A stretch of DNA of 64,000 nucleotides from Leptotrichia sp. OH3620_COT-345 (GTDB lineage: Bacteria > Fusobacteriota > Fusobacteriia > Fusobacteriales > Leptotrichiaceae). The notes under the pieces are model-generated. The model searched no databases. It saw only the letters and a program-made list of their open reading frames with translations, and was not told the DNA's origin. The DNA lies in assembly GCF_003932895.1 (NCBI RefSeq), contig NZ_RQYW01000001.1:62001-126000 (forward strand), in the 5' to 3' direction. Both the position numbers and the translations under genes were made by a program. Positions 7,297 through 58,952 of the stretch are shown here, in pieces (position 1 is the first letter of the stretch; each line of letters starts with the position of its first letter).

Positions 7297-8229
7297 TTAC
7301 CAATTTTCCTCATTATTTTCAAACAAATTATTTTCATCTGTACTTTTTACCGTTTTACTTTTTTTCAAATCCATATATTCCACATTCAGATATATAACCA
7401 CTCCCAATATAACGGACATTATCGATATCAGCATATTGATTCCTACATTTACTACAAAAAATATTATAGCAATGATATTTGAAAAAGGACTGCCTAAAAT
7501 ATAATTCATTACAGTAAACGGAATGGATAAAAGACTGCTCAAGATAAATAAAAGCAGATGAGGAATAATTATTCTCAACCTGTTTCCCTTACATAAATGG
7601 AAGTTATAAAACATAGCTTCTTTAAATTTAAGATTTCTTAAAATATACAGCGGTTTGAAATATAAAAATTTAATCCAATATATAAAAGAAACTGCTACAG
7701 CATAAATAACACCGATACTACCGAAAACTATAAGTAAAAATATTATTTCACTGTCCTTTGCCCCTGAACTTATCATACCCCTAGCAAATACCGCCCCCAT
7801 AAATAAAATTAAACAAAAAATAATAACTAAAATTCCGAATACAATAATTTCAAATATGAACACTGTAAAATATCTTTTTAATATTTCCAATAAACTGAAA
7901 GTATTTTTATTTTCTATTTTAGAAGCTACATTTTTCATAATAATTATAAATAAAATACCTAATAAAACACCTAATAAAGTAGAAGATGTGCTTTCAAAAC
8001 TTTCTGAAACTGCCCTGATAAAACCTTCAATATCTCCATTCTTTACTAAATTCGCATATTTTTCCGCCGCTTTTGCTCCCATCACATTTAAAACTAATAG
8101 CAGTATAAAGATTACTGTAACTAAAAATTTATTTTCAAAAATTATTTTTTTAAACACTTCATATGATATATTAAAGTAAGCTTCCGTTTTCAAATATTTT
8201 TCAGCCAATTTCTCTTTTATTTCCTCCAT
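7297..8229 (-). CDS. Hypothetical multi-pass membrane protein
   Basis: The 310 residues have about six membrane helices (near 33-52, 78-102, 118-150, 160-190, 220-245 and 248-290), a cytoplasmic N-terminal stretch and an acidic tail (ENNLFENNEENW). The topology resembles the broad group of small integral membrane proteins sometimes annotated as glycerophosphoryl diester phosphodiesterase-membrane-domain-like, but I cannot assign a family. An AAGGAG site precedes the ATG. It is the first gene of the leftward run that leads to the amidase. Confidence 0.75.
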   Translation of the reverse strand: MEEIKEKLAEKYLKTEAYFNISYEVFKKIIFENKFLVTVIFILLLVLNVMGAKAAEKYANLVKNGDIEGFIRAVSESFESTSSTLLGVLLGILFIIIMKNVASKIENKNTFSLLEILKRYFTVFIFEIIVFGILVIIFCLILFMGAVFARGMISSGAKDSEIIFLLIVFGSIGVIYAVAVSFIYWIKFLYFKPLYILRNLKFKEAMFYNFHLCKGNRLRIIIPHLLLFILSSLLSIPFTVMNYILGSPFSNIIAIIFFVVNVGINMLISIMSVILGVVIYLNVEYMDLKKSKTVKSTDENNLFENNEENW

Positions 8230-37701: not shown

Positions 37702-39033
37702 TTATTTCAATGCATTCAATCCTGCAAGATTTATAAAGTTCCAAGGTTTATTATAATGTGGCTGGAAGAAGAAATCAATAAATGCCAGTTCATCAACAGT
37801 CATATTATTTTGTATACATACTGACAGAGTATTTATTGATTGAGTCAAATCAGCCTTTGAAGTTAATTGGGCTCCTAAAATTTTTCTTGTATTTTTTTCA
37901 AATACCACTTTTAATGTGACTTTTTCATATGTAGGCATAAATTCAGGTCTGTAATTATCTACAGCATAAACATAATCAGCATCTATTCCTTCTTTTTCAG
38001 CTGTTTCCTGAGTTATCCCCGTTGACGCCATATTATTTTCATATATTTTAATACCTGATGTTCCCTGTGTTCCCGGGTGTTTTATTTTATTTTCTATTAA
38101 ATTAAGTCCTGCCAGAGTTCCCATTCTTACTGCATTTGTAGCAAGAGGAATGTACATAGGGGAACCTAACGGATTAAAGAATACTGAACAGCAATCTCCT
38201 GCCGCCATTACATCCTTATCACTTGTTCTCATATATTCATCAACTTTTATCGCCCCGTTCGGTAACATTTCCAGCTGACCTTTAAATATTCCCGTATTAG
38301 GCATAAATCCTACACACATTATTACCATATCAGCTTCATGCTCATTTTTATCAGTAATAACTTTAGTTACATTTCCGTCTTTTCCTTCAAATTTTACGAC
38401 TTTTTCTCCTGTTGCAATGACTATCCCGTGATTTTTAAATGATTCTTCGGCAATATCAGTATAATCCTTATCAAAATATTTACTTAATATTCTTTCTTCC
38501 GCATCGACTAAAACAACTTCTTTTCCGTTATCTCTAAATGCTTCCACAAGTTCCACACCGATATATCCTGCACCTACTACAACTATTTTTTTTGCATTTT
38601 TCCCTCTTTCAATTATTTCATTTGAATGATTGAAATTTTTTGAAAGCAGGATATTATTTAAGTCTATTCCTTCAATCGGAGGAATAATAGGCCATGAACC
38701 TGATGTAATAATAAGTTTATCAAAAGTTTCATCAAATTCAATTCCTGTTTCCAGATTTACTACGTGCACTTTTTTACCTTTTATATCAACGCTTTTTACA
38801 TCATGTTTCATTCTTGTATCAACGTTCAGTTCTTTCAGTTTTTCAGGCGAACAGTAAAACAATCCCTGAGGGTCCTTTACTACTCCGCCCACATACAGTG
38901 CAATTCCACATGACAGAAAAGAAATATTATCATTTCTTTCAAATACAGTTACATCTATATCAGGGTTTAATCTCTTTAAATTCAATACCGCTGCTGTCCC
39001 GGCATGTGTACATCCTATTACGACTACTTTCAT
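37702..39033 (-). CDS. nox: NADH oxidase / CoA-disulfide reductase family flavoprotein
   Basis: The 443 residues have the FAD motif VVVIGCTHAGTAA at the N-terminus, the redox-active cysteine in SFLSCGIALYVGG (about 42), a second dinucleotide fold VVVGAGYIGVELVEAF, and the FAD-binding AAGDCCSVF segment. These match water-forming NADH oxidases, which remove oxygen and regenerate NAD+ in fermentative bacteria; the CoA-disulfide reductase relatives cannot be excluded. AAGGAG precedes the ATG. Monocistronic with a terminator. Confidence 0.92.
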   Translation of the reverse strand: MKVVVIGCTHAGTAAVLNLKRLNPDIDVTVFERNDNISFLSCGIALYVGGVVKDPQGLFYCSPEKLKELNVDTRMKHDVKSVDIKGKKVHVVNLETGIEFDETFDKLIITSGSWPIIPPIEGIDLNNILLSKNFNHSNEIIERGKNAKKIVVVGAGYIGVELVEAFRDNGKEVVLVDAEERILSKYFDKDYTDIAEESFKNHGIVIATGEKVVKFEGKDGNVTKVITDKNEHEADMVIMCVGFMPNTGIFKGQLEMLPNGAIKVDEYMRTSDKDVMAAGDCCSVFFNPLGSPMYIPLATNAVRMGTLAGLNLIENKIKHPGTQGTSGIKIYENNMASTGITQETAEKEGIDADYVYAVDNYRPEFMPTYEKVTLKVVFEKNTRKILGAQLTSKADLTQSINTLSVCIQNNMTVDELAFIDFFFQPHYNKPWNFINLAGLNALK

Positions 39034-45011: not shown

Positions 45012-46133
45012 TTATTTATCAAATTCTCTCAAATATTCTGAAAGTTTTTCCAATCCTTTTTTTAATGTTTCTGTATAGGTACAATATCCCAGACGTGCAT
45101 AACCCGGCATATCAAAACGATTTCCCGGAACTAAAAGAACCCCTTTTTCTTTTAACAAATTGATACAAAATTTCTCTGTTTCCATCGGAATATCCAGTTT
45201 AATAAAGGAAGTAGATACATTTCTCGGAAAAATTACCGATACTCTCGGTTCTTTTTTTATCCATTCCTTTAAAATTTGCAGATTTTCAGATACTATTTTC
45301 TGATTACGTTTCAAAACGGCATTTTTATTTTTCAATACATATGTTGCCAGATAATCATCAAATACCCCTGCACAAATCATTGTATAATCACGATATTTAC
45401 GAAAAAGGTCAGTTATTTCAAGATTTGCTGCAGTCCAACCTACTCTTATCCCCGGAACCGAATAAGTTTTTGATAGACTGTTAATTGAAATTCCTTTATT
45501 ATATAAATCTACAATAGCAGGAATTTCAAGTCCATTTTCAAGAGGTTTATAAACTTCATCAGAAAGAATGTATATTTCATATTTTTCAGCTATTTTTACC
45601 AATTCTTCCAGAAATTCACGGTTCATTATAGCACCCGTAGGATTGTTTGCGTTGTTAATACATATCATCTTAGTATTCGAACGAATTAAGCTGTTTAATT
45701 CGTTTAAGTCAGGCAACCATTCATTTTCTTCTTTGATTCTCCATAAATCAACTTCTGCTCCTAAAGAACGCGGTATATCATATAGCTGTTGATAAGTAGG
45801 GTATAATGAAATTATATGGTCATCAGGTTCGACTAAAGCATATAAAGCCATAAAATTCGCCCCTGTAGCTCCATTAGTCTGTAAAATCTGTTCAGAAGAA
45901 ACATTTTTATAAAGCATACTTACCTGTTTTTTAAATTCAGGCGATCCTTCAATCCATCCGTAATTCATTTTCTTTATTATTAGTTCTTGAAAAAATTCTT
46001 CTTTTGTCTTATTTCCTATTGCTATAATTTCTTCCAAAGTAAATGAAGCAATAGAGCTTCCCGCAATATCATAAACTGCTTCATTTTCCCACACATTCAG
46101 CCACTCTTCCACTCCAAAATTAGCTATTTTCAT
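45012..46133 (-). CDS. PLP aminotransferase at the end of the arginine island
   Basis: The 373 residues form a fold-type I aminotransferase: NNANNPTGAIMN near residue 165, SDEVYKPL, and the PLP lysine in SINSLSKTYSVPGIRVGW (about 220). Its compact form resembles the transaminase genes (arcT) found in arginine deiminase operons of lactobacilli, though function there is also unproven. AGGAAGTG precedes the ATG. It follows argS by 64 bp. The substrate might be ornithine, arginine or a by-product; this is inference from context. Confidence 0.85.
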   Translation of the reverse strand: MKIANFGVEEWLNVWENEAVYDIAGSSIASFTLEEIIAIGNKTKEEFFQELIIKKMNYGWIEGSPEFKKQVSMLYKNVSSEQILQTNGATGANFMALYALVEPDDHIISLYPTYQQLYDIPRSLGAEVDLWRIKEENEWLPDLNELNSLIRSNTKMICINNANNPTGAIMNREFLEELVKIAEKYEIYILSDEVYKPLENGLEIPAIVDLYNKGISINSLSKTYSVPGIRVGWTAANLEITDLFRKYRDYTMICAGVFDDYLATYVLKNKNAVLKRNQKIVSENLQILKEWIKKEPRVSVIFPRNVSTSFIKLDIPMETEKFCINLLKEKGVLLVPGNRFDMPGYARLGYCTYTETLKKGLEKLSEYLREFDK

Positions 46134-46197: not shown

Positions 46198-47922
46198 TTA
46201 CATTCTTTCAACTACATCTATTCCTAATAGTCCTAATCCTTCTTTTATTATATAAGCTGTTTTTTCAGCAAGTAACAGTTTTGTATTAAACCTACTTTTA
46301 TTTTCTTCTTTAGTTATTGAATCAGCAGCATAAAATGTATTAAATATTTTAGCCGTTTCAAAAAGATAATCTGCAATAATGTTAGGTTTGTAACTTTCAT
46401 ATGATTTTAAAACTGCATAAGGAAATTTTAATAAAGCTAAAGCTAACTCTCTTTCATTTTTATTAAATTCTTCAAATATCAAATTATCATTCTTAATATA
46501 ATTTCCATAATTTTTCCTTAATTTTCTGAATATGGACATTATCCTTGCATATGTATATTGCAAATAAGGAGATGTATTTTCTTCAAAATTCAGAACTTTA
46601 TCCCATGAAAATGAAATAGGTGTCATTCTATTTTGACTCAAATCAAAATATTTTATAGCTCCAATTCCGATTATTTCTGCTATTTCACTTTTTTCTTCTT
46701 CAGATAGTTCAGGATTTTTTATATTAATAATTTTCTTTGCCTTTTCTATAGCTTCATCTAATATATTAATGAGTCGTCCTTCATTTACGGATGAGAAAAC
46801 ATCATCTTCAAATCTCATAATCCCGAACCAGACATGGATTTTTTCGTAATCATACGGTTTTCCTATCATTTCAGATATTTTGAATACTTGCCTAAAATGC
46901 TCTTTCGGTCTTTCATCCATTACATAAATAGCACTGTCAATGTCAAGTATATCTTTCCTATATTTGAATGTGGCCAAATCCGTGGATGAATATAAATGAC
47001 TGTTTCCATCTTTTTTCCGTACTATACAGGGACTTAATTTTTCTTTTTCATTAAAAAATACCGTAAGCACTCCTTCATCATTTACGGCTATCTTCTTTTT
47101 CCTAAGTATTTCCAATATTTCAGGAATCATTTTAATATAAAATGATTCTCCGTAATACGTATCAAATTCTATATTTAATTTTTTATAAATTTTCTCAAAT
47201 TCTTTTAATGAATACTCGACAAAGCTTTTCCATAAGTCAACATTTTTTTTGTCACCTGATTGTAATTTTATCCATTCTTCTTTTGCGGATACTTCCAACT
47301 CAGGATTTAACTGTGCTTCTTCAGAAAACTTCAAATATATTCTTTCAAGTTCTCCTATGGGATTTTTTTCATATTCTTCCTTATCCACCCACTTATTATA
47401 ACCGACTATAAGTTTCCCAAAACGACTTCCCCAATCCCCTAAATGATTATCTCCTGATACTTTAAAACCTACATATTTTAATATACGCTTTAAAGAATCC
47501 CCGATTATTGTACTTCGTAAATGTCCTATGTGCATTCTTTTTGCTATATTCGGAGAAGAATAATCTATAATTGTATTTTTTGATGTATCAATTGGAAAAT
47601 TATATTTTTCAGAACCTATTTTTTTTATTTCATTAATAACTACAGAATTTTTTATAAATATATTTAAAAATCCTGGACCGGCAATTTCAAATTTATCTAT
47701 AATATCATAATTTCTAAATTTTTTTATGATTTCTTCTGCAATTTTTTCCGGATTTTTACCTATTTTTTTTGAATTTACAAGAGCAAAATTTGTCTGAAAA
47801 TCGGCAATTTCCTTTTTAGAAGTATATCGAACTTCTACACTGATATTTTTGAACGCTTTTCCAAATATTTGTTCAATGTTTTCTTTCAGTTCTTCTTGAA
47901 CTTTAATAATTACCGGTTTCAT
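46198..47922 (-). CDS. argS: Arginyl-tRNA synthetase
   Basis: Class I synthetase that charges tRNAArg. The 574 residues show the HIGH signature in MHIGHLRSTIIGDSLKRIL (about 131), the N-terminal Add1 domain (1-110), and the C-terminal anticodon-binding DALR domain (about 455-574). The KMSKS loop is not obvious, as in many arginyl enzymes. TGGAGG precedes the ATG. Its place among arginine-use genes suggests common control with arginine supply. Confidence 0.96.
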   Translation of the reverse strand: MKPVIIKVQEELKENIEQIFGKAFKNISVEVRYTSKKEIADFQTNFALVNSKKIGKNPEKIAEEIIKKFRNYDIIDKFEIAGPGFLNIFIKNSVVINEIKKIGSEKYNFPIDTSKNTIIDYSSPNIAKRMHIGHLRSTIIGDSLKRILKYVGFKVSGDNHLGDWGSRFGKLIVGYNKWVDKEEYEKNPIGELERIYLKFSEEAQLNPELEVSAKEEWIKLQSGDKKNVDLWKSFVEYSLKEFEKIYKKLNIEFDTYYGESFYIKMIPEILEILRKKKIAVNDEGVLTVFFNEKEKLSPCIVRKKDGNSHLYSSTDLATFKYRKDILDIDSAIYVMDERPKEHFRQVFKISEMIGKPYDYEKIHVWFGIMRFEDDVFSSVNEGRLINILDEAIEKAKKIINIKNPELSEEEKSEIAEIIGIGAIKYFDLSQNRMTPISFSWDKVLNFEENTSPYLQYTYARIMSIFRKLRKNYGNYIKNDNLIFEEFNKNERELALALLKFPYAVLKSYESYKPNIIADYLFETAKIFNTFYAADSITKEENKSRFNTKLLLAEKTAYIIKEGLGLLGIDVVERM

Positions 47923-47957: not shown

Positions 47958-49223
47958 TTAAACACCTATTTTCACATTTTTCCTTAAATCCGTAGGTGTT
48001 ATATTTTTTAACTTAAAAAAATTATTATTAAATGTTTTAACGGTATTATATCCTAATTCAAAAGAAATATCAATTATGCTTTTATCAGTTGTTAGAAGTA
48101 GTTCACAAGCCTTATCTATTCTTAAAGTATTTAAAAATTCAATAAATCTTTTTCCTGAATATGACATTAAAATTTTATTTAATTTAGTATCGGTAATATT
48201 GAATTTATCTGTCAAATCACTAATAGTCAGTTCCTTTGTATAATTTTTATAAATATAATTTACTATACTGTAAACAAGTTCCTGTTCTTTTTCATTAAAT
48301 ATTTGATATATATTTTTATAATGTTCTCTATAGGCATTCGGATTCATTTTTAAGTATTTATTACATAGCTTTGATATGTGAGCACCATCTACAAAACCTA
48401 CTAAATATGCTATTTCTTCAATATTCAAATCAGTATACACAATCAAATCCAGTGCTTTTGAAATTCTCATATGCCTTAACAATTCATTAAAAGTAAATCC
48501 TGTTACTCCTTCCAAATATCTTGTAATAGACGACTCACTCATAAAAAACATTACTGACAGTTTGTTTAATGTAAGCTTTTCATTTAGGTGTGCATAAATA
48601 TATTTAATTATATTATTTGTTGTCACTTCTTTTTTTTTTAGCTCTTCCTTATTTTCAGAAACTGCTTTTTTGGCTATCATTATTATTAGTTCAGTTAGTT
48701 TATTCGTCACATAAACCGTACTTAAATCGAAGTCATTTTCTTCTTTCGATTTATCCCTTTCAGGAAATGTATCAAAATCCGAAAATGACTCCATTCCTAT
48801 TTCATCTTTTATCTGAAAAAATATGTTTTTTACTGTTTCAGATTCAGTTTCATTAAAATAAACAATCGGAACTTTTTTTATCAGTGAAAAAATATGAGTC
48901 CTATTTTTCTTATATTTATTCAATACATTTAATATTAAATTACTAAAAACAGAATTATATGATACCTTCATTATTCTCAGTATTTTCTTTATTTCAGTTA
49001 TTTCCATTATTTCCCACGGAAAAACTGCCAACAGTGTATTAGGAACAATATCATATTCCCTGTCATATATTTTCACTTTTCCAATACCATCACTGAAAAA
49101 CAGTAATTTTGATGCACTGTGTATCGTCGGTTTGACAGGAGTTTCAATATATTCAATATTAAAAGAATATAATTTATAATGTTTATAATTCTTCTGATAC
49201 TGTAAATCCAATTCGTTAATCAT
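47958..49223 (-). CDS. AraC-family regulator with two tandem DNA-binding modules
   Basis: The 421 residues have an N-terminal cupin-like sensing half (about 1-110, FSDGIGKVKIYDREYDIVPN), a linker, then two complete AraC/XylS HTH modules. The first (about 205-300) reads NKLSVMFFMSESSITRYLEG and ends FVDGAHISKLCNKYLKMNP; the second (about 310-418) reads ISDLTDKFNITDTKLNKIL and ends GYNTVKTFNNNFFKLKNITP. One module is usual. GTGAGG precedes the ATG. Directly downstream of arcD, it probably controls the arc genes; this is inference. Confidence 0.88.
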   Translation of the reverse strand: MINELDLQYQKNYKHYKLYSFNIEYIETPVKPTIHSASKLLFFSDGIGKVKIYDREYDIVPNTLLAVFPWEIMEITEIKKILRIMKVSYNSVFSNLILNVLNKYKKNRTHIFSLIKKVPIVYFNETESETVKNIFFQIKDEIGMESFSDFDTFPERDKSKEENDFDLSTVYVTNKLTELIIMIAKKAVSENKEELKKKEVTTNNIIKYIYAHLNEKLTLNKLSVMFFMSESSITRYLEGVTGFTFNELLRHMRISKALDLIVYTDLNIEEIAYLVGFVDGAHISKLCNKYLKMNPNAYREHYKNIYQIFNEKEQELVYSIVNYIYKNYTKELTISDLTDKFNITDTKLNKILMSYSGKRFIEFLNTLRIDKACELLLTTDKSIIDISFELGYNTVKTFNNNFFKLKNITPTDLRKNVKIGV

Positions 49224-49273: not shown

Positions 49274-50671
49274 CTATCTGATAATCATCATTGCAATAGT
49301 TAATATTACTATATCCATAACAAATATTATTGCTATAAGTTTTCCTACAAATTTTATCCAAGTTCCGTACTGCATCTTACCTATTGCAAGTCCTCCCATA
49401 ACGACTCCCGATGTAGGTGTGATTAAGTTAATAATTCCTGAAGCCGCGCTGAATATTAATACCATAACTTCAGCACTGTAACCTAAAGCTGATGTCAAAG
49501 GTCCTAATACAGGGAATGCTACTGAAGCCAGTCCCGATGTTGACGGTATCAGGAATGACAGCACTAAAAAGAGCAGATACGACATAGGAGCAAATATGAA
49601 AGCCGGTAATCCTTTTAAGGCTGCTGAAGCCGTATTAAGTATAAATGCATCAAATTTTGTTGCTGCCATTAACACTGAAGCCCCTCTTGCTACTGCAATT
49701 ATAAGCACTACACTCAGTATATCTTTTACTCCTTCCATAAAGGAGTCTATTATTTCCGTTTCTTTAAATCCATTAACTATCCCTATTATAACTGCGGATA
49801 GTAAAAACCACATAGACAACTCCGCAAAATACCATTCTCCCAAAGAAGTTCCTGTCAGGAAACTTGTCCATCCTTTAAATACGGTTATTCCAAAACTTTC
49901 CCATGGAATTAATGAAATAACCATTATAAGAAATGTCAAAGAAAACAATATTAATGTAACTCTTGTTTTTCCCGTAAATTCTATATTATCAAAATTTGCA
50001 TGTCCGAAACTTTCCTGCATATCTTTCTGTTCCTGTAATGATAAAATTGTTGACCCTTTTTCAGCTTTCACTTTTTTTGCATAACTTAAAACATAGAAAA
50101 TGGCGGCACCCAAAGCTGATAACCATAATACTGCTCCAAGCATTATTACTATACCGCTGTTATATTGTATTCCTTTTTCTTTCAGAGCATCAAGAGCAAC
50201 TCCTATTGCAAAAGGATTGACAGTTGAACCTAAAACTCCCACTCCTGCACCGAGCATTATTGTTGCAACTCCCACAGTACTATCAAATCCCGCTGCAACC
50301 ATTGTGGAACAAATTAATACATAAAATGCCACAGTTTCTTCTGCCATTCCATATGTAGTTCCTCCAATTGAGAATAAAATCATCAGTATGACAATCAGAA
50401 CAAGTTCATTTCCTTTAAGTTTTTTTACAAGTGCACCTATTCCTGCATCTAATGCTCCTGTTTTTGTGACCACTCCTAAAAATCCTCCGAGTAGCAATAT
50501 GAATATACATACGTCTATCGCTTCTTTAAATCCGTTAAATGGTGCCATTACTACTGTCGATAATGATGCATTTTCAACCTGAGGAAAAAACCAAGTTAAA
50601 ATTGCCAATCCGAATATTATTAGAAATAAAATTGAGAATGCGGACAATTGTATACCTTTTTTCTTAGCCAT
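49274..50671 (-). CDS. arcD: YfcC-family carrier, probable arginine/ornithine antiporter
   Basis: The 465 residues have about twelve helices and the DcuC/YfcC family segments GGTTYGMAEETVAFYV and STSGLASVAFPVLGPL. In many fusobacteria and streptococci, carriers of this family in arc operons exchange arginine for ornithine; placement 20 bp after arcC supports that role. It differs in family from the APC-type ArcD of Pseudomonas. GGGAG precedes the ATG. A paralogous carrier is at 17138. Confidence 0.85.
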   Translation of the reverse strand: MAKKKGIQLSAFSILFLIIFGLAILTWFFPQVENASLSTVVMAPFNGFKEAIDVCIFILLLGGFLGVVTKTGALDAGIGALVKKLKGNELVLIVILMILFSIGGTTYGMAEETVAFYVLICSTMVAAGFDSTVGVATIMLGAGVGVLGSTVNPFAIGVALDALKEKGIQYNSGIVIMLGAVLWLSALGAAIFYVLSYAKKVKAEKGSTILSLQEQKDMQESFGHANFDNIEFTGKTRVTLILFSLTFLIMVISLIPWESFGITVFKGWTSFLTGTSLGEWYFAELSMWFLLSAVIIGIVNGFKETEIIDSFMEGVKDILSVVLIIAVARGASVLMAATKFDAFILNTASAALKGLPAFIFAPMSYLLFLVLSFLIPSTSGLASVAFPVLGPLTSALGYSAEVMVLIFSAASGIINLITPTSGVVMGGLAIGKMQYGTWIKFVGKLIAIIFVMDIVILTIAMMIIR

Positions 50672-50690: not shown

Positions 50691-51626
50691 TTAAAATTTA
50701 ATAACCGTCCCCGTATTTCCTACTAACGCTGAACCGGCATTCTGCAATGAAGTAATGATAGCCTGTCCTTCTCTATTGTTTTCCACATATTCCATGCAAG
50801 CTTCTATTTTAGGCAACATGCTTCCTTTAGCAAAATGACCTTCATCAATATACTTTTTAATTTCTTCGATATTTAAAACATCTAATTCTTTCTGATCAGG
50901 TTTATTATAGTTAATGTAAACTTTATCAACGGCAGTCAGTATAACAAGCATATCAGCTTTTAAATCTGCGGCAAGTTTGGAACTTGACTTATCCTTATCT
51001 ATAACTGCATCTACACCTCTATAATGTCCATTTTCCTCTACTACAGGTATTCCTCCTCCTCCTACAGTAATTACAACAGTTCCTTTATCTACAAGTGCTT
51101 CCACTTCTTCAATTTCAACTATTCTTTTAGGTGACGGTGAAGGGACAACTCTTCTATATCCTCTTCCTGCATCTTCTACAAATGTAAATCCTTTTTCTGA
51201 AGCTATTTTATCAGCTTCTTCCTTACTGTAAAACATTCCTATAGGTTTTGTAGGATTTGTAAATGCAGGATCTTTTTCATCTACAACTACCTGTGTCACA
51301 AGAGATACTACACCTTTTTTTATATTCTGGGCATTAAGTTCTTCTCTTATTGCCTGCTGAAGATGATATCCTATATATCCCTGACTCATTGCTCCGCACT
51401 CTGCAAAAGGCATATATGGAGTTTTTACTTCTCCGTTTGCAGCATAATCCATTGCCAAATTTATCATTCCCACTTGAGGACCGTTTCCATGACCTATTAC
51501 AACTTCAAATCCCTCTTTAATCATGTCAACTATTGATTTAGCCGTATTCTTTACAAGTTTCAGCTGTTCTTCAGGACTATTTCCTAAAGCATTCCCTCCA
51601 AGTGCAACTACTATTCTTTTCACCAT
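50691..51626 (-). CDS. arcC: Carbamate kinase
   Basis: Transfers phosphate from carbamoyl phosphate to ADP, giving ATP, CO2 and ammonia; the energy-yielding step of the arginine deiminase route. The 311 residues begin [10 protein letters not shown] and include [18 protein letters not shown] and the conserved [13 protein letters not shown]. Its start ATG overlaps the last base of the arcB stop, so translation is coupled; no separate ribosome site is needed. Confidence 0.97.
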
Positions 51627-52618
51627 TATTTCAACGTAGCATACATTACCGCTTTAATTGTATGCATCCTATTTTCAGCTTGGTCGAAAACTTTTGACTG
51701 AGGGCTTTCAAAAACTTCGTCTGTAACTTCCATTTCAGGTAAACCGAATTTATCATTTATTTCTTTTCCTATAGTTGTTTTTAAATCATGGAACGAAGGC
51801 AAGCAGTGGAGGAAAATAGCAGTATCCTTTGCATAGCTCATCGCTTCTTTATTTACCTGGAATTTTTTCAATTCCTTAATTCTCTGTTCCCATACCTCTT
51901 CAGGCTCTCCCATTGATACCCATATATCCGTATAAATAACATCGGCATTTGTACATGCTTCCTTTACATCTTCGGTAAATCTTATTATACTTCCGCTTGC
52001 CTTAGCAAGTTCTTCAGCTTTTTCAATTAATTCCTGAGCAGGTTTCAAATCTTTAGGACCACATGCAGTAAAATTCAATCCCATTTTTGCACATGCTATT
52101 AAAAGAGAGTTACCCATATTGTTTCTTGTATCTCCCATATATACAAAGTTGATTCCTTTTAAATATCCGAAATTTTCTTCGATTGTCAGTAAATCTGCAA
52201 GCATCTGAGTAGGATGAAACTCATTTGTAAGTCCATTCCATACAGGTACTCCTGCATTTGCTGCAAGTTCTTCAACTATAGTTTGGTCAAATCCTCTGTA
52301 TTCAATTCCGTCATACATTCTTCCCAAAACACGTGCTGTATCTTCAATACTTTCTTTTTTTCCCATCTGAGAACTTCCCGGATCAAGATAAGTAACTCCC
52401 ATTCCTAAGTCCATTCCTGCAACTTCAAAAGCACATCTTGTACGTGTAGATGTCTTTTCAAACAAAAGGACTATATTTTTTCCTTCTAAATATCTGTGAG
52501 GTGTCCCTGTCAACTTTAATTCTTTAAAGTTTTTTGACAAATCAAGCAGATATCTGATGTCGCAACTTGTAAAATCCAATAATTTCAAATAATTTCTTCC
52601 GCTTAAATTTTTTGGCAT
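51626..52618 (-). CDS. arcB: Ornithine carbamoyltransferase (catabolic arcB / argF)
   Basis: Converts citrulline and phosphate to ornithine and carbamoyl phosphate (or the reverse in synthesis). The 330 residues carry the carbamoyl-phosphate site STRTRCAFE, the HPTQ segment and the ornithine loop HCLPSFHD, where Ser replaces the more usual Ala. The ATG at 52616-52618 has AGGA eight bases upstream; the ATG three codons earlier directly follows AAAGG. It is the only carbamoyltransferase in the window, so it may serve both catabolism and synthesis with argG/argH. Confidence 0.95.
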
Positions 52619-52651
52619 TGAAACCATCCTTTCTATATTTTAAAGTATTTT

Positions 52652-52737: not shown

Positions 52738-53952
52738 TTAATCTTCTCTTACTAAAGGCATACTCATACATCTTGGTCCTCCACGTCCTCTTGACAGTTC
52801 CGCACTCGGCATTTCAAGAACTTTCAAGCCTGCCTGTCTAAGAAGTTCGTTCGTTACGTCATTTCTTTCATAAACAACTATAACTCCCGGAGCTATACAT
52901 AATGTATTTGAACCGTCATTCCACTGTTCTCTTTCAGCTGCAATTCTGTCTTCTCCGCCGCATTTTATCAACTTAACATCAGGAACTTCCAGATATTTTT
53001 CGAGTATTGACTTCAAAGTTCCTGTCAGAAGTTTTACCTCTATATTATCTCCGTTCTTTTTTATCTCATGGACTTCTAAAGGTCCCATAATATTTGGATG
53101 TATAGTAAACTTATCATAATCTATTTGTGTAAACACAGTGTCTAAATGCATAAACGCTCTTGTTTCAGGTATTTTGAATGCAAGTACGGTATTTATTGAA
53201 GAATCATTTGCCGCAAAAATGTTTTTTGCTATCTGATCTATTGCTGCAGCTTGAGTACGTTGAGAAATTCCAATTGCAAGTACCTTATCATTTAAATTAA
53301 GAATATCTCCACCTTCAATATGAAACTGATTATCCCTTTCATAAAAATAAGGAACTTTTCCCTTGTATTCAGGATGATGTTTGAAAATGTAATCTGCATA
53401 AATAGTTTCCCTGTTTCTTGTTATGGAATACATTCTATTTAGACTTACACCGTTTCCGATTGAAGCGAAAGGATCACGTGTGAAATAAAGATTTGGCATA
53501 GGATCCAAAATCAGTTCACTATCATCATTTAATCTTGAAATTAGCGAATCAGAAGTCAAATTAAGCTCTCCGTATTTTACTCCTTCCATAGTTTTCAATA
53601 TTAATTCCTTATTATCACTATATGAATCGAAAAGTTTCATTAAAGCTTCCCTATATTCAGGTACAAGTACCCCTCCTTCAGTAATAAACTGCTCGAGAAA
53701 TTGTTTCTTTAAATCAGGACATTGTCCTATTGTTTCTGCCGCTAAATCTTCAAGATAAACGACTTCAACTCCGTTTTCTTTAAGAATTTTTGCAAAAGTA
53801 TCGTGTTCAGCTTGTGCAACTTTTAGGAAAGGTATATCATCAAATAAAAGTCTTTCCAATGTGTCCGGAGTCAAATTCAACAATTCTTTTCCGGGTCTGT
53901 GTAATAAAACTTTTTTTAACGGTTTTATTTCACTTTTTACATTAATTGCCAT
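52738..53952 (-). CDS. arcA: Arginine deiminase
   Basis: Hydrolyses arginine to citrulline and ammonia. The 404 residues contain the substrate-site motifs NLYFTRDPFASIG (about 158-170), FHIEGGDILNLND (catalytic His/Glu region, about 210) and HLDTVFT (about 270), with the nucleophilic cysteine in RGGPRCMSMPL near the C-terminus. AGGAGG precedes the ATG. First gene of the arc cluster, with a palindrome 43-67 bp upstream. Confidence 0.97.
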   Translation of the reverse strand: MAINVKSEIKPLKKVLLHRPGKELLNLTPDTLERLLFDDIPFLKVAQAEHDTFAKILKENGVEVVYLEDLAAETIGQCPDLKKQFLEQFITEGGVLVPEYREALMKLFDSYSDNKELILKTMEGVKYGELNLTSDSLISRLNDDSELILDPMPNLYFTRDPFASIGNGVSLNRMYSITRNRETIYADYIFKHHPEYKGKVPYFYERDNQFHIEGGDILNLNDKVLAIGISQRTQAAAIDQIAKNIFAANDSSINTVLAFKIPETRAFMHLDTVFTQIDYDKFTIHPNIMGPLEVHEIKKNGDNIEVKLLTGTLKSILEKYLEVPDVKLIKCGGEDRIAAEREQWNDGSNTLCIAPGVIVVYERNDVTNELLRQAGLKVLEMPSAELSRGRGGPRCMSMPLVRED

Positions 53953-53994: not shown

Positions 53995-54046
53995 AAAGAT
54001 AATATAATTTATTATCTTTGTAATTTACACTATAATTATATTTCAA
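53995..54046 (-). promoter_or_regulatory. arcA upstream palindrome and candidate -10
   Basis: AAAGATAATA (53995-54004) and TATTATCTTT (54010-54019) are a perfect 10-bp inverted repeat around a 5-bp centre, 43-67 bp before the arcA ATG. A TATAAT (minus strand, 54035-54040) lies just upstream, without a convincing -35 box. It may be an operator or a leader hairpin. Confidence 0.5.
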
Positions 54047-54372
54047 AAATAAAAATTATAGGGAAATTTTTCTTTTATTTTTTTGTATAATTAATATTTT
54101 TATTTTTTATGAATACTTATTATTATTTTAATATTATACTTATCTACTACAATTTTTAATTTTCAAAATATTAATTATACTTGAATTTACTCTTATCATA
54201 CAATTTTTTCCTAATCAGTATAATCAGCATTTTTCAGAAATTTTTGAATGTGTAAAAAATAATTTTATGTCAAAAAAATTTAAAATCCGTTTCTTAATGA
54301 AAAATAATTTTTAATTTTTCATTTTGAAACGGATTAAATGTTCAAAATATTAATATATTATAGTTTCTTAAC
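54020..54372. other. Gap between arcA and the metal transport operon
   Basis: About 350 bp without a gene. It holds the arcA upstream sequence, a fragment related to the dispersed repeat (around 54205-54250: TTTTTTCCTAATCAGTATAA) that matches the start of the 59.2 kb region, and the terminator at 54284-54335. Confidence 0.45.
54284..54335 (-). terminator. Terminator of the metal-uptake operon
   Basis: AATCCGTTTC and GAAACGGATT form a 10-bp perfect stem; inside it AATGAAAAAT and ATTTTTCATT form a second 10-bp stem. On the minus strand it is followed by TTTTAAATTTTTTT. It ends the transcript after the last permease gene. Confidence 0.85.
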
Positions 54373-55470
54373 TTATAGTTTTTGTTTTAAAAATTCTTTT
54401 CCCTTATCTGTTATTTTAAAAATTCTGTTATCTATATATATCAATTTTAATTCTTTAGCTTTTTCAAGAATTTTGTTATAAAACTTTTTTTCCCATCTTA
54501 AATGATACTCCATTGTGTCAAGTCCGCATTCATCTTTTTCTTCAGGTGTACCACTATGATTAAATATATGAATTAATAACATTTTTACTGAAAATTCTAT
54601 TTTTTGATTTTTCTTCCGATAAAATGTAAAAATCAATCCTTTTTTAGGAGAAACTGTCAGTACAATAATGAAAATCACTCCTATTACTACCGAAATCATC
54701 CCTGCTATTGAAACATCCCATTTTACAGCGAGAAAATATCCAATTACACTTGATACTGAGCCTAAAATTATGCTTAAAAACAGCATTATCTTAAGATTAC
54801 TTGTAATTAAATAAGCAGTTATCGGCGGTCCTATCATAAAAGCTACTACCAGTATGGATCCTACAGCTTCAAAAGATGCTACTGAAGTTACTGATACCAG
54901 TGACATAAGCATGTAGTGAATTAATACAGGTTTCATCCCTAGAGTTGCTGCAAGTGCCTTATCAAAAGTAGATATTTTTAACTCTTTGAAAAAAATTATT
55001 ACAAATAAGAAATTTACTACAAATACGGTAAAAGTTATAATTAAACCTTTAGCTATCGTAAAACCAAAAATTTCTACCGTATTAAATGGAGCAAAGGCAA
55101 GCTCTCCTAATAATACGGAATCTACATCGAGATGAATATTTGAAGCATATTTTGATATAAGTATCACAGCTATACTGAACAAAAGAGGAAATACTACTCC
55201 GATTGCGGAATCTTCTTTTACAAGTCTTGTAGAATGCAAAAGTTCCACTAAATATACTGTTAAAACCCCTACTATCCCTGCACCTAATATCAAGAAAGGT
55301 GAGCTTAAATCATGAACTATGAAAAATGCAATTACAATACCGAGTAAAATTGTATGAGTTATTGCATCAGAAACCATTGCCATATTTTTCAAAACCAGAA
55401 ATGCACCTAAAATAGAACACGAAGAAGCTACCATTATTGCAATTAGCTGTATTACCAATCCTGCACTCAT
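54373..55470 (-). CDS. Metal ABC transporter permease (TroD/MntB-like) with C-terminal extension
   Basis: ABC-3 family permease for Zn, Mn or Fe. The 365 residues have about eight helices over the first 290 residues, with the family motif region AFEAVGSILVVAFMIGPP. The last 75 residues form a soluble extension (DECGLDTMEYHLRWEKKF, then KITDKGKEFLKQKL) that looks like a small winged-helix domain; long TroD-type permeases have such tails. The start overlaps the upstream stop as ATGA. Confidence 0.88.
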   Translation of the reverse strand: MSAGLVIQLIAIMVASSCSILGAFLVLKNMAMVSDAITHTILLGIVIAFFIVHDLSSPFLILGAGIVGVLTVYLVELLHSTRLVKEDSAIGVVFPLLFSIAVILISKYASNIHLDVDSVLLGELAFAPFNTVEIFGFTIAKGLIITFTVFVVNFLFVIIFFKELKISTFDKALAATLGMKPVLIHYMLMSLVSVTSVASFEAVGSILVVAFMIGPPITAYLITSNLKIMLFLSIILGSVSSVIGYFLAVKWDVSIAGMISVVIGVIFIIVLTVSPKKGLIFTFYRKKNQKIEFSVKMLLIHIFNHSGTPEEKDECGLDTMEYHLRWEKKFYNKILEKAKELKLIYIDNRIFKITDKGKEFLKQKL

Positions 55471-56414
55471 AATTCCAGCCCCCTTTGCACATTGGTCTGT
55501 TTTATTTTCTTATTTTTAAGCTGTTCTTTAAATATTTTTTTTCTTCTCTTATTCATAACAATCCGGAATATAATTCCTCTTTTGGGAGAAAAAAGAATGC
55601 TTAATATTACTATTATACTTATAACTACTACTATAACGGGACCTGTTGGAAGATCAGACTGAGTCATACTTATAAGAGTTCCTGTCAATCCTGCCAATCC
55701 CCCAAATATCCCTGATAGAATAATCATTATTGATAATTTATCCGTCCATTGTCTTGCCGCCACTCCCGGAGAAATAATCATAGCACTTATCAGTATTACT
55801 CCTGCTGCCTGAATTCCTATTATTACCGTAACTACAAGTAAGACAGAAATAAAAATTTCAATTTTTCTACTTGGAAACCCTAACGTTTTTGCAAAATCAG
55901 GATCAAAAACCACTATTTTAAATTCTTTCCATAATAGAATAATTATAATTAAGAGTATCACTCCTGTATACAACATCAATTTTACATCACGTTCGACAAA
56001 TGTAGAAGCCTGTCCAAAAATAAACTTGTTTAATCCTGATTTATTAGCTCCCGGTAACTTGTTCAAATATGAAAGAAAAACAAGACCCAAACCGAAAAAT
56101 ACAGATAAAATAAAGGCTAATGCACTATCAAATTTTATTTTAGTATTATTCTGAATAATCTGTATAAGCCCGATACAGATCATACCTACTACTAAAGCTC
56201 CTAAAAGAAGAATTTCAGTATTCTTTACTTGAGTGATAATAAAGGCAATACAGACTCCGGGCAATGAAGCATGAGAAACTGCATCTCCTAACAGACTTTG
56301 TTTTCTCAAAACTGCAAAACAACCTAATATACCTGAAACAGAGCCTAAAAGCATACAGCCCATAGCAACCGTTCTGAATGTATGTTCACTTATAAGGAGA
56401 TGTATTATATTCAC
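55467..56414 (-). CDS. Metal ABC transporter permease (TroC-like)
   Basis: ABC-3 family permease of 315 residues with about eight helices and the motif IQAAGVILISAMIISPG. Its partner permease overlaps it by 4 bp, so the two form a heterodimer channel. The start is a GTG with GGAGG seven bases upstream. A basic tail (MNKRRKKIFKEQLKNKKIK) faces the cytoplasm. Confidence 0.9.
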   Translation of the reverse strand: MNIIHLLISEHTFRTVAMGCMLLGSVSGILGCFAVLRKQSLLGDAVSHASLPGVCIAFIITQVKNTEILLLGALVVGMICIGLIQIIQNNTKIKFDSALAFILSVFFGLGLVFLSYLNKLPGANKSGLNKFIFGQASTFVERDVKLMLYTGVILLIIIILLWKEFKIVVFDPDFAKTLGFPSRKIEIFISVLLVVTVIIGIQAAGVILISAMIISPGVAARQWTDKLSIMIILSGIFGGLAGLTGTLISMTQSDLPTGPVIVVVISIIVILSILFSPKRGIIFRIVMNKRRKKIFKEQLKNKKIKQTNVQRGLEL

Positions 56415-56416
56415 AT

Positions 56417-57166
56417 TTAAACCTCCTTTTCGGATAAAAACTTACTTTTATAAGTTTTCTCTATATTTTCAGAAGTAAAGACTTCATCTACATGACCTGA
56501 AGCTATAACGGAAACATTTATGAAAGTTACATAATCAAAGTAGTTTTTTACTGTCTGTAAATCATGATGTACTACTATTACAGTTTTTCCGTCATCTCTT
56601 AATTTTTTAAGTATACTCACTATTGACTTCTCAGTTTTACTGTCAACTCCTTGAAAAGGTTCATCCATAAAATATATATCCGCATCCTGAACTAACGCCC
56701 TTGCCAAAAATACTCTTTGCTGCTGGCCTCCTGATAATTGGCTTATCTGCCTGTTTTTATACTCCTCCATTTCAACTTTCAAAATCGCCTCTTCTGTTTT
56801 TTTTCTATCTATTTTACCTACTCTTTTCAGCCATCCAACTTTACCGTATCTTCCCATTTCCACCACATCAAAAACTGTTGTAGGAAAATCCCAATCGACA
56901 CTTCCTCTTTGAGGTACATAAGCAATTCTATTCCTTACTTTATTATATTTTTCTCCATAAAAGAATATTTCACCTGTTGCAGGTTTTATTAAATCAAGCA
57001 TTGCTTTTATTAAAGTAGATTTTCCCGCTCCGTTAGGTCCGACTATTGCCATTAGCACACCTTTTCTAACTTCCAGTTCAATATCCCATAAAACCGGTTT
57101 TTCTTCATATGCTACTGTCAAATCTTCCACTTTAATAACTGCTTCTTTTAAATTATTTTCAGACAT
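56417..57166 (-). CDS. Metal ABC transporter ATPase (TroB-like)
   Basis: ATP-binding subunit of a cluster-9-type metal importer. From the ATG at 57164-57166 (GGAGG upstream) there are 249 residues. Walker A GPNGAGKST, the signature LSGGQQQR and Walker B DIYFMDEP are all present. An in-frame ATG 14 codons earlier has no ribosome site. It lies between the binding-protein gene and the permeases. Confidence 0.94.
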   Translation of the reverse strand: MSENNLKEAVIKVEDLTVAYEEKPVLWDIELEVRKGVLMAIVGPNGAGKSTLIKAMLDLIKPATGEIFFYGEKYNKVRNRIAYVPQRGSVDWDFPTTVFDVVEMGRYGKVGWLKRVGKIDRKKTEEAILKVEMEEYKNRQISQLSGGQQQRVFLARALVQDADIYFMDEPFQGVDSKTEKSIVSILKKLRDDGKTVIVVHHDLQTVKNYFDYVTFINVSVIASGHVDEVFTSENIEKTYKSKFLSEKEV

Positions 57167-57328
57167 TTTTCCTCCTGTTCCAAACTTATGTAAAAATTGA
57201 GATTTCACGTCATATAAATTTACAACAAAACATTTAAAATTATTTAACTGCTTTGTAAAAACATTGATTTTCTTATTTTAAATTTTTTTTATTATATCTC
57301 ATCAATTTTTTGAATTTAAATTAAAATT

Positions 57329-58285
57329 TTATTTCAAGGCATTTGCTATTGTATCTGCGTTTGCTTTTACAGTTTTGATATATGTCTCAGTTCCATGAGC
57401 TTCATCTCCTAATGAATCTGAATACAACTCTCCTCCTATTTTTACTTCTTTTCCTTTAGATTTTACAGCTTCCTGTAAAGCTTCTATACTTTTCTTAGGT
57501 ACTGAAGATTCAATAAATATTGCTTTTATATTATTTTCAACTATAAAATTTGCTAAATCAGTAATATTTTTGCTTCCTGTTTCAGAATCTGTAGAAACAC
57601 CCTGTATAGCTCTAACTTCCAATCCGAACTGTCTTGCAAAATATCCGAATGCATCATGGGCAGTTACAAGAACCCTACTTTTTTCAGGAATTTCATTTAT
57701 TTTTTCTTTTACATAATTTGCCAATTCAACTAATTCCCCTTTATATTTCTCAAGATTTTCTTTATAATATGTACTATTTGACGGATCATTTTTACTTAAT
57801 TCAGCTTCAACAGCTTCAGCTTGTTTTGCCCATAATTCCGTATCAAACCATACATGAGGGTCAGCAGTATTTTCATCTTCAAGCATAATTTTATTTTTAT
57901 CTAAAGCATCTCCAACATTTAAAACTTTTTTATTCTGGGATGACAATTTTTCAAATATTTCAATCATTTTACCTTCCAAATGTAACCCCCCATATACTAC
58001 AATATCAGCATTTGAAAGCTTATCTATATCTCCTGCACTTGCAGCATATAAATGAGGATCTACTCCTTCTCCCATTAGCCCTGTGACTTCGACTTTATCT
58101 CCTCCTATAGTTTTTATAAGATCTACAAGCATTGTTGTTGTTGTTGTAACCTTTATTTTTTTATCCGTTGTAGCAGCACTCATATTTTCTTTAGCTTCTT
58201 CTTTTTTTCCGCATGAAAATACTGCAAGTACTGTTATTATTGATATAATTAAAAATTTGAAAATATTTTTTATATTTTTATTCAT
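57329..58285 (-). CDS. Metal-binding lipoprotein of a Zn/Mn ABC transporter (TroA-like)
   Basis: Cluster A-I (PF01297, ZinT/TroA) solute-binding protein anchored by a lipobox (VFSC). The 318 residues carry the metal-ligand segments GEGVDPHLYAAS, DPHVWFD, AHDAFGYFARQFGLE and YSDSLGDE near the end. No His-rich loop is seen, so a Mn or Fe role is as likely as Zn. CGGAGG precedes the ATG. It follows the regulator with a 1-bp gap. Confidence 0.93.
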   Translation of the reverse strand: MNKNIKNIFKFLIISIITVLAVFSCGKKEEAKENMSAATTDKKIKVTTTTTMLVDLIKTIGGDKVEVTGLMGEGVDPHLYAASAGDIDKLSNADIVVYGGLHLEGKMIEIFEKLSSQNKKVLNVGDALDKNKIMLEDENTADPHVWFDTELWAKQAEAVEAELSKNDPSNSTYYKENLEKYKGELVELANYVKEKINEIPEKSRVLVTAHDAFGYFARQFGLEVRAIQGVSTDSETGSKNITDLANFIVENNIKAIFIESSVPKKSIEALQEAVKSKGKEVKIGGELYSDSLGDEAHGTETYIKTVKANADTIANALK

Positions 58286-58286
58286 T

Positions 58287-58952
58287 CTACATATCCTCCG
58301 TATCTTTATTTTTTCTATAAACCTCTATCATGCCTGCCGCATTATAAGCCACCACTTTTATACTTTTTTCCTTACTGTTCAAGTATATCGGTCCTTTAAA
58401 AGGATCTTTTCTCTGAACTGTATAAGTTTCTTTAATTCCTATATTCAATTCTTTAAGATAATCATATAGCTCAATATTGTCTTCTACACTTAATATAATT
58501 ACTTCATCATCTTCTTCCGCTTCTGAAAGCTTAATTATATTTTCTTCATCAAATTTTTTAATACCATAGAAAATAGGACTCCCATGTGGACATTCTTTTG
58601 GATAAAAGAGAAATTTTTCAAGTTTTTTAAGAAGTCTTTCACTTGTTACATGTTCCAGAATTTCTGCTTCAGTATGTACTTCATCCTTACTATATCCCAG
58701 TTTTTCAAATAGAAAAACTTCCCATACTCTATGCTTTCTTATAATATTCAAAGCAAATTTGTTACCTTTCTCTGTCAACTTTATATTTTTCCCTGATACT
58801 GTCAAATATGCATCATTTGCCAGTTTTTTTATCATTTCGCTTACTGAAGCCGGAGAAATATTCAGGTATTCTGCAAGATTTTTGTTTGAATATTGTTTTT
58901 TCTTTTTCAGTGTATATATTCCTTTTAAATAGTCCTCTATACTTCTACTCAT
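58287..58952 (-). CDS. DtxR/TroR-family metal-dependent repressor
   Basis: The 221 residues consist of a winged-helix DNA-binding domain (1-65, YLNISPASVSEMIKKLA as recognition region), a metal-binding dimerisation domain (about 66-140, RHRVWEVFLFEKLGY, EAEILEHV and CPHGSPIF) and a C-terminal FeoA/SH3-like domain (about 150-215). The length matches DtxR/TroR rather than the short MntR of bacilli. AAGGAG precedes the ATG. First gene of the operon, probably repressing itself through the palindrome at 58985. Confidence 0.92.
   Translation of the reverse strand: MSRSIEDYLKGIYTLKKKKQYSNKNLAEYLNISPASVSEMIKKLANDAYLTVSGKNIKLTEKGNKFALNIIRKHRVWEVFLFEKLGYSKDEVHTEAEILEHVTSERLLKKLEKFLFYPKECPHGSPIFYGIKKFDEENIIKLSEAEEDDEVIILSVEDNIELYDYLKELNIGIKETYTVQRKDPFKGPIYLNSKEKSIKVVAYNAAGMIEVYRKNKDTEDM

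Follow-up and report, generated by a model that had tools for sequence, protein, structure and literature searches.

The gene at positions 47958-49223 (minus strand) of the window, by which we mean the whole 64,000-nucleotide stretch of Leptotrichia sp. OH3620_COT-345 DNA analysed here, encodes a 421-amino-acid AraC-type protein, starting with ATG, in which a cupin-fold sensor half is followed by two complete DNA-binding modules. Computation revealed these two modules, a linkage of the gene to arginine deiminase (ADI) genes, an operator at a constant distance from a -10-like hexamer and further ADI-type targets, and we infer that the tandem AraC protein binds that operator. Comparison of sequences makes it quite likely that this protein acts as local regulator for an ADI regulon, a single chain reading two unlike half-sites beside the -35 region, most likely as an activator. 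Since relatives in two phyla adjoin arc genes and a matching two-part site precedes those genes, the system appears to be an arginine-pathway switch of a class so far undescribed. With less assurance, we favour on balance the view that it defines a distinct AraC class, in which a duplicated module allows one chain to occupy two unlike half-sites 22 bp apart, instead of two chains occupying two repeats, and which governs the ADI regulon (arcA, arcB, arcC, transporter and C69 dipeptidase) in two phyla.

Domain structure of the regulator

The features of the protein are located as follows.
47958-49223, minus strand: tandem-module AraC-type regulator, 421 amino acids (open reading frame, HTH_18 matches, AlphaFold2)
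48849-49223, minus strand: cupin-fold sensor half, residues 1-125 (AlphaFold2 barrel and Foldseek; no Pfam hit)
48315-48617, minus strand: DNA-binding module 1, residues 203-303 (HTH_18, 64.2 bits)
47976-48293, minus strand: DNA-binding module 2, residues 311-416 (HTH_18, 65.4 bits)
48024-48026, minus strand: codon of Asn400 in the last recognition helix (residue tracking operator base 23 across the family, through one or two events)

A preliminary description of this DNA had proposed two full modules after a cupin-like half, to be checked by profile searches of each half and by structure prediction, and both lines of evidence bear it out. The 421-residue chain has two matches to Pfam HTH_18, together scoring 122.6 bits; used as separate queries, the C-terminal part and the part preceding it each lie well above the curated cut-off of 33.6 bits (65.4 and 64.2 bits, respectively), so that the second module is not an unrelated domain. 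In a search of the regulator's own genome both its HTH_18 matches lie in a single frame, and it is the only open reading frame there to contain two. The cupin half yielded no match in a Pfam search, so the term 'cupin-like' rests on fold. The AlphaFold2 model made with 32 relatives (mean pLDDT 80.9) opens with a beta-barrel spanning residues 19-122, continues through linker helices at 125-194 and ends in two AraC modules of seven helices each (approximately 205-301 and 311-416), with a short linker between them. Foldseek comparisons, for which an earlier 9-sequence AlphaFold2 model was employed as the query, matched the N-terminal part to the sensor domains of AraC and RhaR (2arc, TMt 0.62-0.64; 5u93, 0.67-0.69) and the modules to single AraC DNA-binding domains (3lsg, 0.86; 6swi, 0.78).

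Its HTH_18 domains thus place the regulator in the AraC/XylS family, whose members carry one DNA-binding domain per chain, about 100 residues long; having two, it is a variant within the family and not a non-member. The N-terminal cupin fold of the sensor-bearing regulators is likewise present, as a fold recognised by AlphaFold2 and Foldseek.

Genomic setting and distribution

The regulator gene is the fifth of a same-strand run, arcA-arcB-arcC-transporter-araC-argS-aminotransferase, whose other members are these.
52738-53952, minus strand: arcA, arginine deiminase (TIGR01078, 523 bits; cut-off 489.1)
51626-52627, minus strand: arcB/argF, ornithine carbamoyltransferase (TIGR00658, 420.4 bits; cut-off 280.85)
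50691-51626, minus strand: arcC, carbamate kinase (TIGR00746, 401.9 bits; cut-off 358.25)
49274-50671, minus strand: DcuC/YfcC-type transporter (PF03606, 291 bits; YfcC model below its cut-off)
46198-47922, minus strand: argS, arginine--tRNA ligase (TIGR00456, 468 bits; cut-off 261.65)
45012-46133, minus strand: PLP aminotransferase, PRK07324 (NF005593, 620 bits; cut-off 476)

The transporter is probably an arginine/ornithine exchanger of the ArcE kind rather than a true ArcD (for the distinction see PMC5300872). An Rfam scan of the window found no RNA elements, a promoter scan of the operon stayed at the level of shuffled sequence (55 vs 51.4) and a terminator scan rose little above it (6 vs 3.2). 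Positions 54373-58952, which lie upstream of arcA and share its strand, hold what appears by eye to be a metal-ion ABC uptake operon, with two permeases, an ATPase, a solute-binding protein and a DtxR/MntR-like regulator.

Relatives were found in about 67 genomes, 11 from Leptotrichiaceae and 56 of Clostridia type, the latter mostly from the Anaerosphaera/Peptoniphilus family. Conservation on this scale means that the tandem architecture is neither chance nor an assembly artefact. Among 98 Fusobacteriota genomes, proteins spanning the sensor and both modules were found in 11, all of them Leptotrichiaceae, including Streptobacillus notomytis. The Clostridia-type carriers are Anaerosphaera (Peptoniphilaceae), Peptoniphilus and Vallitaleaceae MAGs; the regulator is present in 7 of 391 genomes of a class-wide Clostridia sample and in 52 of 130 from the Anaerosphaera family, a few of these being partial or second copies.

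The regulator follows the pathway. Within Leptotrichiaceae it is found in 11 of 13 genomes with arcA and in none of 10 without (Fisher p = 7e-5), while in the Clostridia class sample arcA is present in 6 of the 7 carriers vs 66 of the 384 other genomes. Linkage to arc genes is seen in Leptotrichiaceae, Peptoniphilaceae-type and Vallitaleaceae genomes, and 43 of the 47 Anaerosphaera-family loci that were fetched contain arc genes, mostly adjoining the regulator or divergent from it, although in Streptobacillus and Sneathia-like genomes the regulator gene lies away from the arc operon, which counts against the proposed role. The early observation of tandem modules beside arginine deiminase genes is thus one that two phyla have kept.

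Several individual loci deserve mention. In two Sneathia-like genomes (L032, 8981-10486; L033, 8455-9951) the regulator adjoins a gene that by eye is cstA-like, and not arc genes. Two Leptotrichiaceae, G005 and G014 (L044 and L045), have arcA, argF, arcC and the transporter but neither the tandem AraC gene nor its operator, a further point against the regulator's proposed role. A homopolymer run also varies among relatives.
48630-48639, minus strand: ten consecutive A in the linker ahead of module 1, in frame both in this genome and in G001
The corresponding run of G002 (L039, around 8039-8043) has eleven A, which puts the gene out of frame; sequencing error, decay, and slippage or phase switching are all possible causes, and the intact arcA operator of that genome was weighed against decay.

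The operator and the predicted regulon

Carriers have in common an operator-like element before their arc genes, TACAA-N16-T(G/T)TCC, in which the key C bases of the two boxes are 22 bp apart and a -10-like hexamer follows after 22-23 bp. In the window it stands upstream of arcA.
54035-54087, minus strand: operator and -10 (TACAA box, 54083-54087; TTTCC box, 54062-54066; TATAAT, 54035-54040)

The motif was spotted by eye upstream of arcA/argF in the first carriers (approximately 20 promoters), and the pattern was fixed before being applied to loci fetched later. It was present in 29 of 43 new operon-head promoters, a test set partly related to the discovery set and containing some near copies, while dinucleotide shuffles gave a mean of 0.3 and a maximum of 3. 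None of 16 argF starts inside operons and none of 20 arcA promoters from non-carrier Clostridia had it. When the box distance was shifted by 1 to 6 bp only 0 to 2 matches were obtained, the signal thus being confined to a spacing of 22. Seven of the 14 misses (L125, L131, L132, L138, L143, L149 and L153) retain two boxes with unaltered spacing and deviate in a base or in the -10. At L155, L156 and L158 the site is located further upstream, before an AGCS symporter gene that precedes arcC and argF (read directly for L155). The 46 sites reduce to 38 distinct ones, and their logo consists of the two boxes and a weak -10 with little else. A relaxed form allowing one mismatch does not exceed chance in the window (18 found vs 12.4 expected), so that only the exact motif and its placement carry weight. 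An exact match to relaxed boxes at 38578-38603 falls inside a coding gene and was set aside as chance.

Genome-wide scans, which were pattern searches only, with low or zero counts for the reversed-pattern controls, extend the likely target set. For Leptotrichiaceae the pattern TACAAAAAAA-N12-TTCC was run in exact form over 15 whole genomes. It found the arcA promoter in 10 carriers and a C69 dipeptidase gene in four genomes; of the two remaining matches one, in G002, has no ORF behind it and one lies within a coding region of a non-carrier. The reversed pattern gave none in the same 15 genomes. The genome of the window has one site at arcA and another, elsewhere, at a C69 dipeptidase gene; no match to the strong pattern precedes argS. 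The dipeptidase genes of G000, G001, G002 and G009 are preceded by the operator with the same -10 spacing.
L177 (G000:C13:45492-45517), also L178, L166 and L175: C69-dipeptidase operator loci
In G008 the same kind of dipeptidase lies inside the arc cluster, between transporter and regulator. The scan of Clostridia returned argF or arcA promoters, unlinked arcC in two genomes and AGCS-type symporters in four (a label given by eye from sequence), together with some within-gene matches resembling chance. We regard it as the strongest sign of function that a motif learned at arcA/argF should find other ADI-type genes. With linkage and co-occurrence, the operator gives strong comparative-genomic support to the proposal, made when the gene was first described, that it controls the arc operon. 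A concrete regulator, an operator and a predicted regulon are hereby supplied for two lineages.

Some sites lie apart from the arc genes. Peptoniphilaceae-type operators stand before AGCS-type sodium/amino-acid symporters at L137, L155, L157, L212, L213, L222, L223 and L226, and at L155 and L157 the symporter so preceded is itself ahead of arcC and argF. Second tandem-AraC copies occur at loci without arc genes (L142, L150 and L137, from G499, G586 and G567, respectively); in G567 the operator is found at an AGCS-type symporter divergent from the second copy. Two further second copies have the operator before their own gene, which suggests self-control and a new target set. In G002 a perfect operator with its -10 (L179, position 1501; G002:C1:1741771) leads into no ORF; the short segment that follows ends with a terminator-like hairpin and is a candidate for a small RNA or a remnant.

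Mode of action and comparison with known systems

In the mechanism that we propose, the cupin half would sense a pathway metabolite, for which arginine, citrulline and ornithine are natural guesses, and both modules of one chain would lie side by side on one TACAA-N16-T(G/T)TCC operator. The C-terminal module is predicted to read the T(G/T)TCC box next to the -35 region, gripping it by the second of its helix-turn-helix motifs. If module 1 is oriented likewise, its own second helix would come to lie about two turns upstream, letting it read the TACAA box, two helix turns away. Thus placed, the protein could touch RNA polymerase in the manner of class II AraC-family activators.

Residue 400, in the last recognition helix, matches operator base 23 in all 49 cases (Arg with G, 34/34; Asn with T, 15/15), and no other of the 214 module columns pairs perfectly with that base. 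On the tree the pairing amounts to only one or two evolutionary events, and a sign test has too few independent pairs to carry meaning, so the match is suggestive and not significant. It concerns module 2 alone, as would be expected if only one module, probably the C-terminal one, read bases, the other serving for dimerisation or polymerase contact or being a partly worn duplicate, and two chains filled the two boxes just as ordinary AraC proteins put two chains on two repeats. We consider this arrangement unlikely, though worth keeping in mind, since conservation is no lower in module 1 than in module 2 (mean top-residue frequency 0.55 vs 0.53; recognition-helix regions conserved in both across 67 proteins), with Asp279 of its second helix-turn-helix invariant and His282 nearly so in a 32-row alignment, and since the two boxes differ in sequence, which is the prediction for two modules that have diverged.

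The position of the boxes bears on the sign of control. They abut the expected -35 region on its upstream side, where a bound protein could block polymerase, and an arc repressor released by arginine might be envisaged. This we judge improbable: a site next to -35 at a fixed distance from -10 is, as a sequence pattern, the class II activator layout; most sites are without a recognisable TTGACA at -35, as expected of activator-dependent promoters; and, of the known AraC-family proteins that have a sensor half, most are activators.

The association of protein and site is purely genomic, and any factor that these genomes share could in principle use the site, the tandem AraC gene being merely a neighbour or itself controlled through it. 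Such an explanation is very hard to reconcile with the absence of the site at arcA of the 20 non-carrier Clostridia, with none being seen at arcA of G005 and G014, with its retention where the regulator is far from the arc genes and with its presence beside second regulator copies in loci without them. Equally far-fetched is the preliminary suggestion of four half-sites or two bridged operators, in which one chain would loop the DNA: if chains with two modules each paired through their cupin halves, as many as four DNA-binding modules would be available, but the exact pattern matches each arcA promoter once and no second conserved element appears in the logo flanks examined (38 distinct sites), which indicates one two-box operator per promoter and no second.

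The protein and its predicted operator form a natural system for studying DNA reading by AraC proteins, with two modules per chain, two boxes at a fixed distance and one residue-base pair that can be swapped. The ADI pathway is a source of ATP and ammonia for oral and other anaerobes, and a paper that makes no mention of AraC associates dental health with ADI expression in oral Leptotrichia (PMC10986539). A literature search, with subscription papers mostly outside it, turned up nothing relevant on tandem AraC DNA-binding domains or on AraC control of arc in these groups.

Comparison with characterised regulators brings out what is particular here. Escherichia coli AraC, RhaS and RhaR likewise couple a cupin-fold sensor to an AraC-type module and bind beside -35 at a pair of boxes separated by about two helix turns, the I1 and I2 half-sites of AraC being some 21 bp apart; unlike them, with one module per chain, the present protein has two complete modules and its boxes differ. 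The large staphylococcal AraC-type proteins AryK and Rsp have the AraC-type module in common with it, but their NCBIfam models exceed 700 residues, compared with 421 here, and even the top match, AryK, reaches 111 bits, far under its cut-off of 850. The arc regulators of ArgR/AhrC, ArcR and Crp/Fnr type serve the same target pathway with unrelated folds, the regulator having no Pfam match to the ArgR fold or to Crp/Fnr-type domains; to our knowledge, TACAA-N16-T(G/T)TCC is not an ArgR-type site. The ArgR of Pseudomonas aeruginosa, which was not among the relatives found, has only one DNA-binding domain and an N-terminal half of another kind, a layout from which the two modules and AraC-like cupin half of our regulator depart. 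It is, however, an AraC/XylS-family protein that likewise acts on arginine deiminase (arc) genes (PMC4813224), so that the idea of a different control scheme was only partly right: AraC-type control of arc was already known, and it is the double-module architecture and the operator that are unusual.
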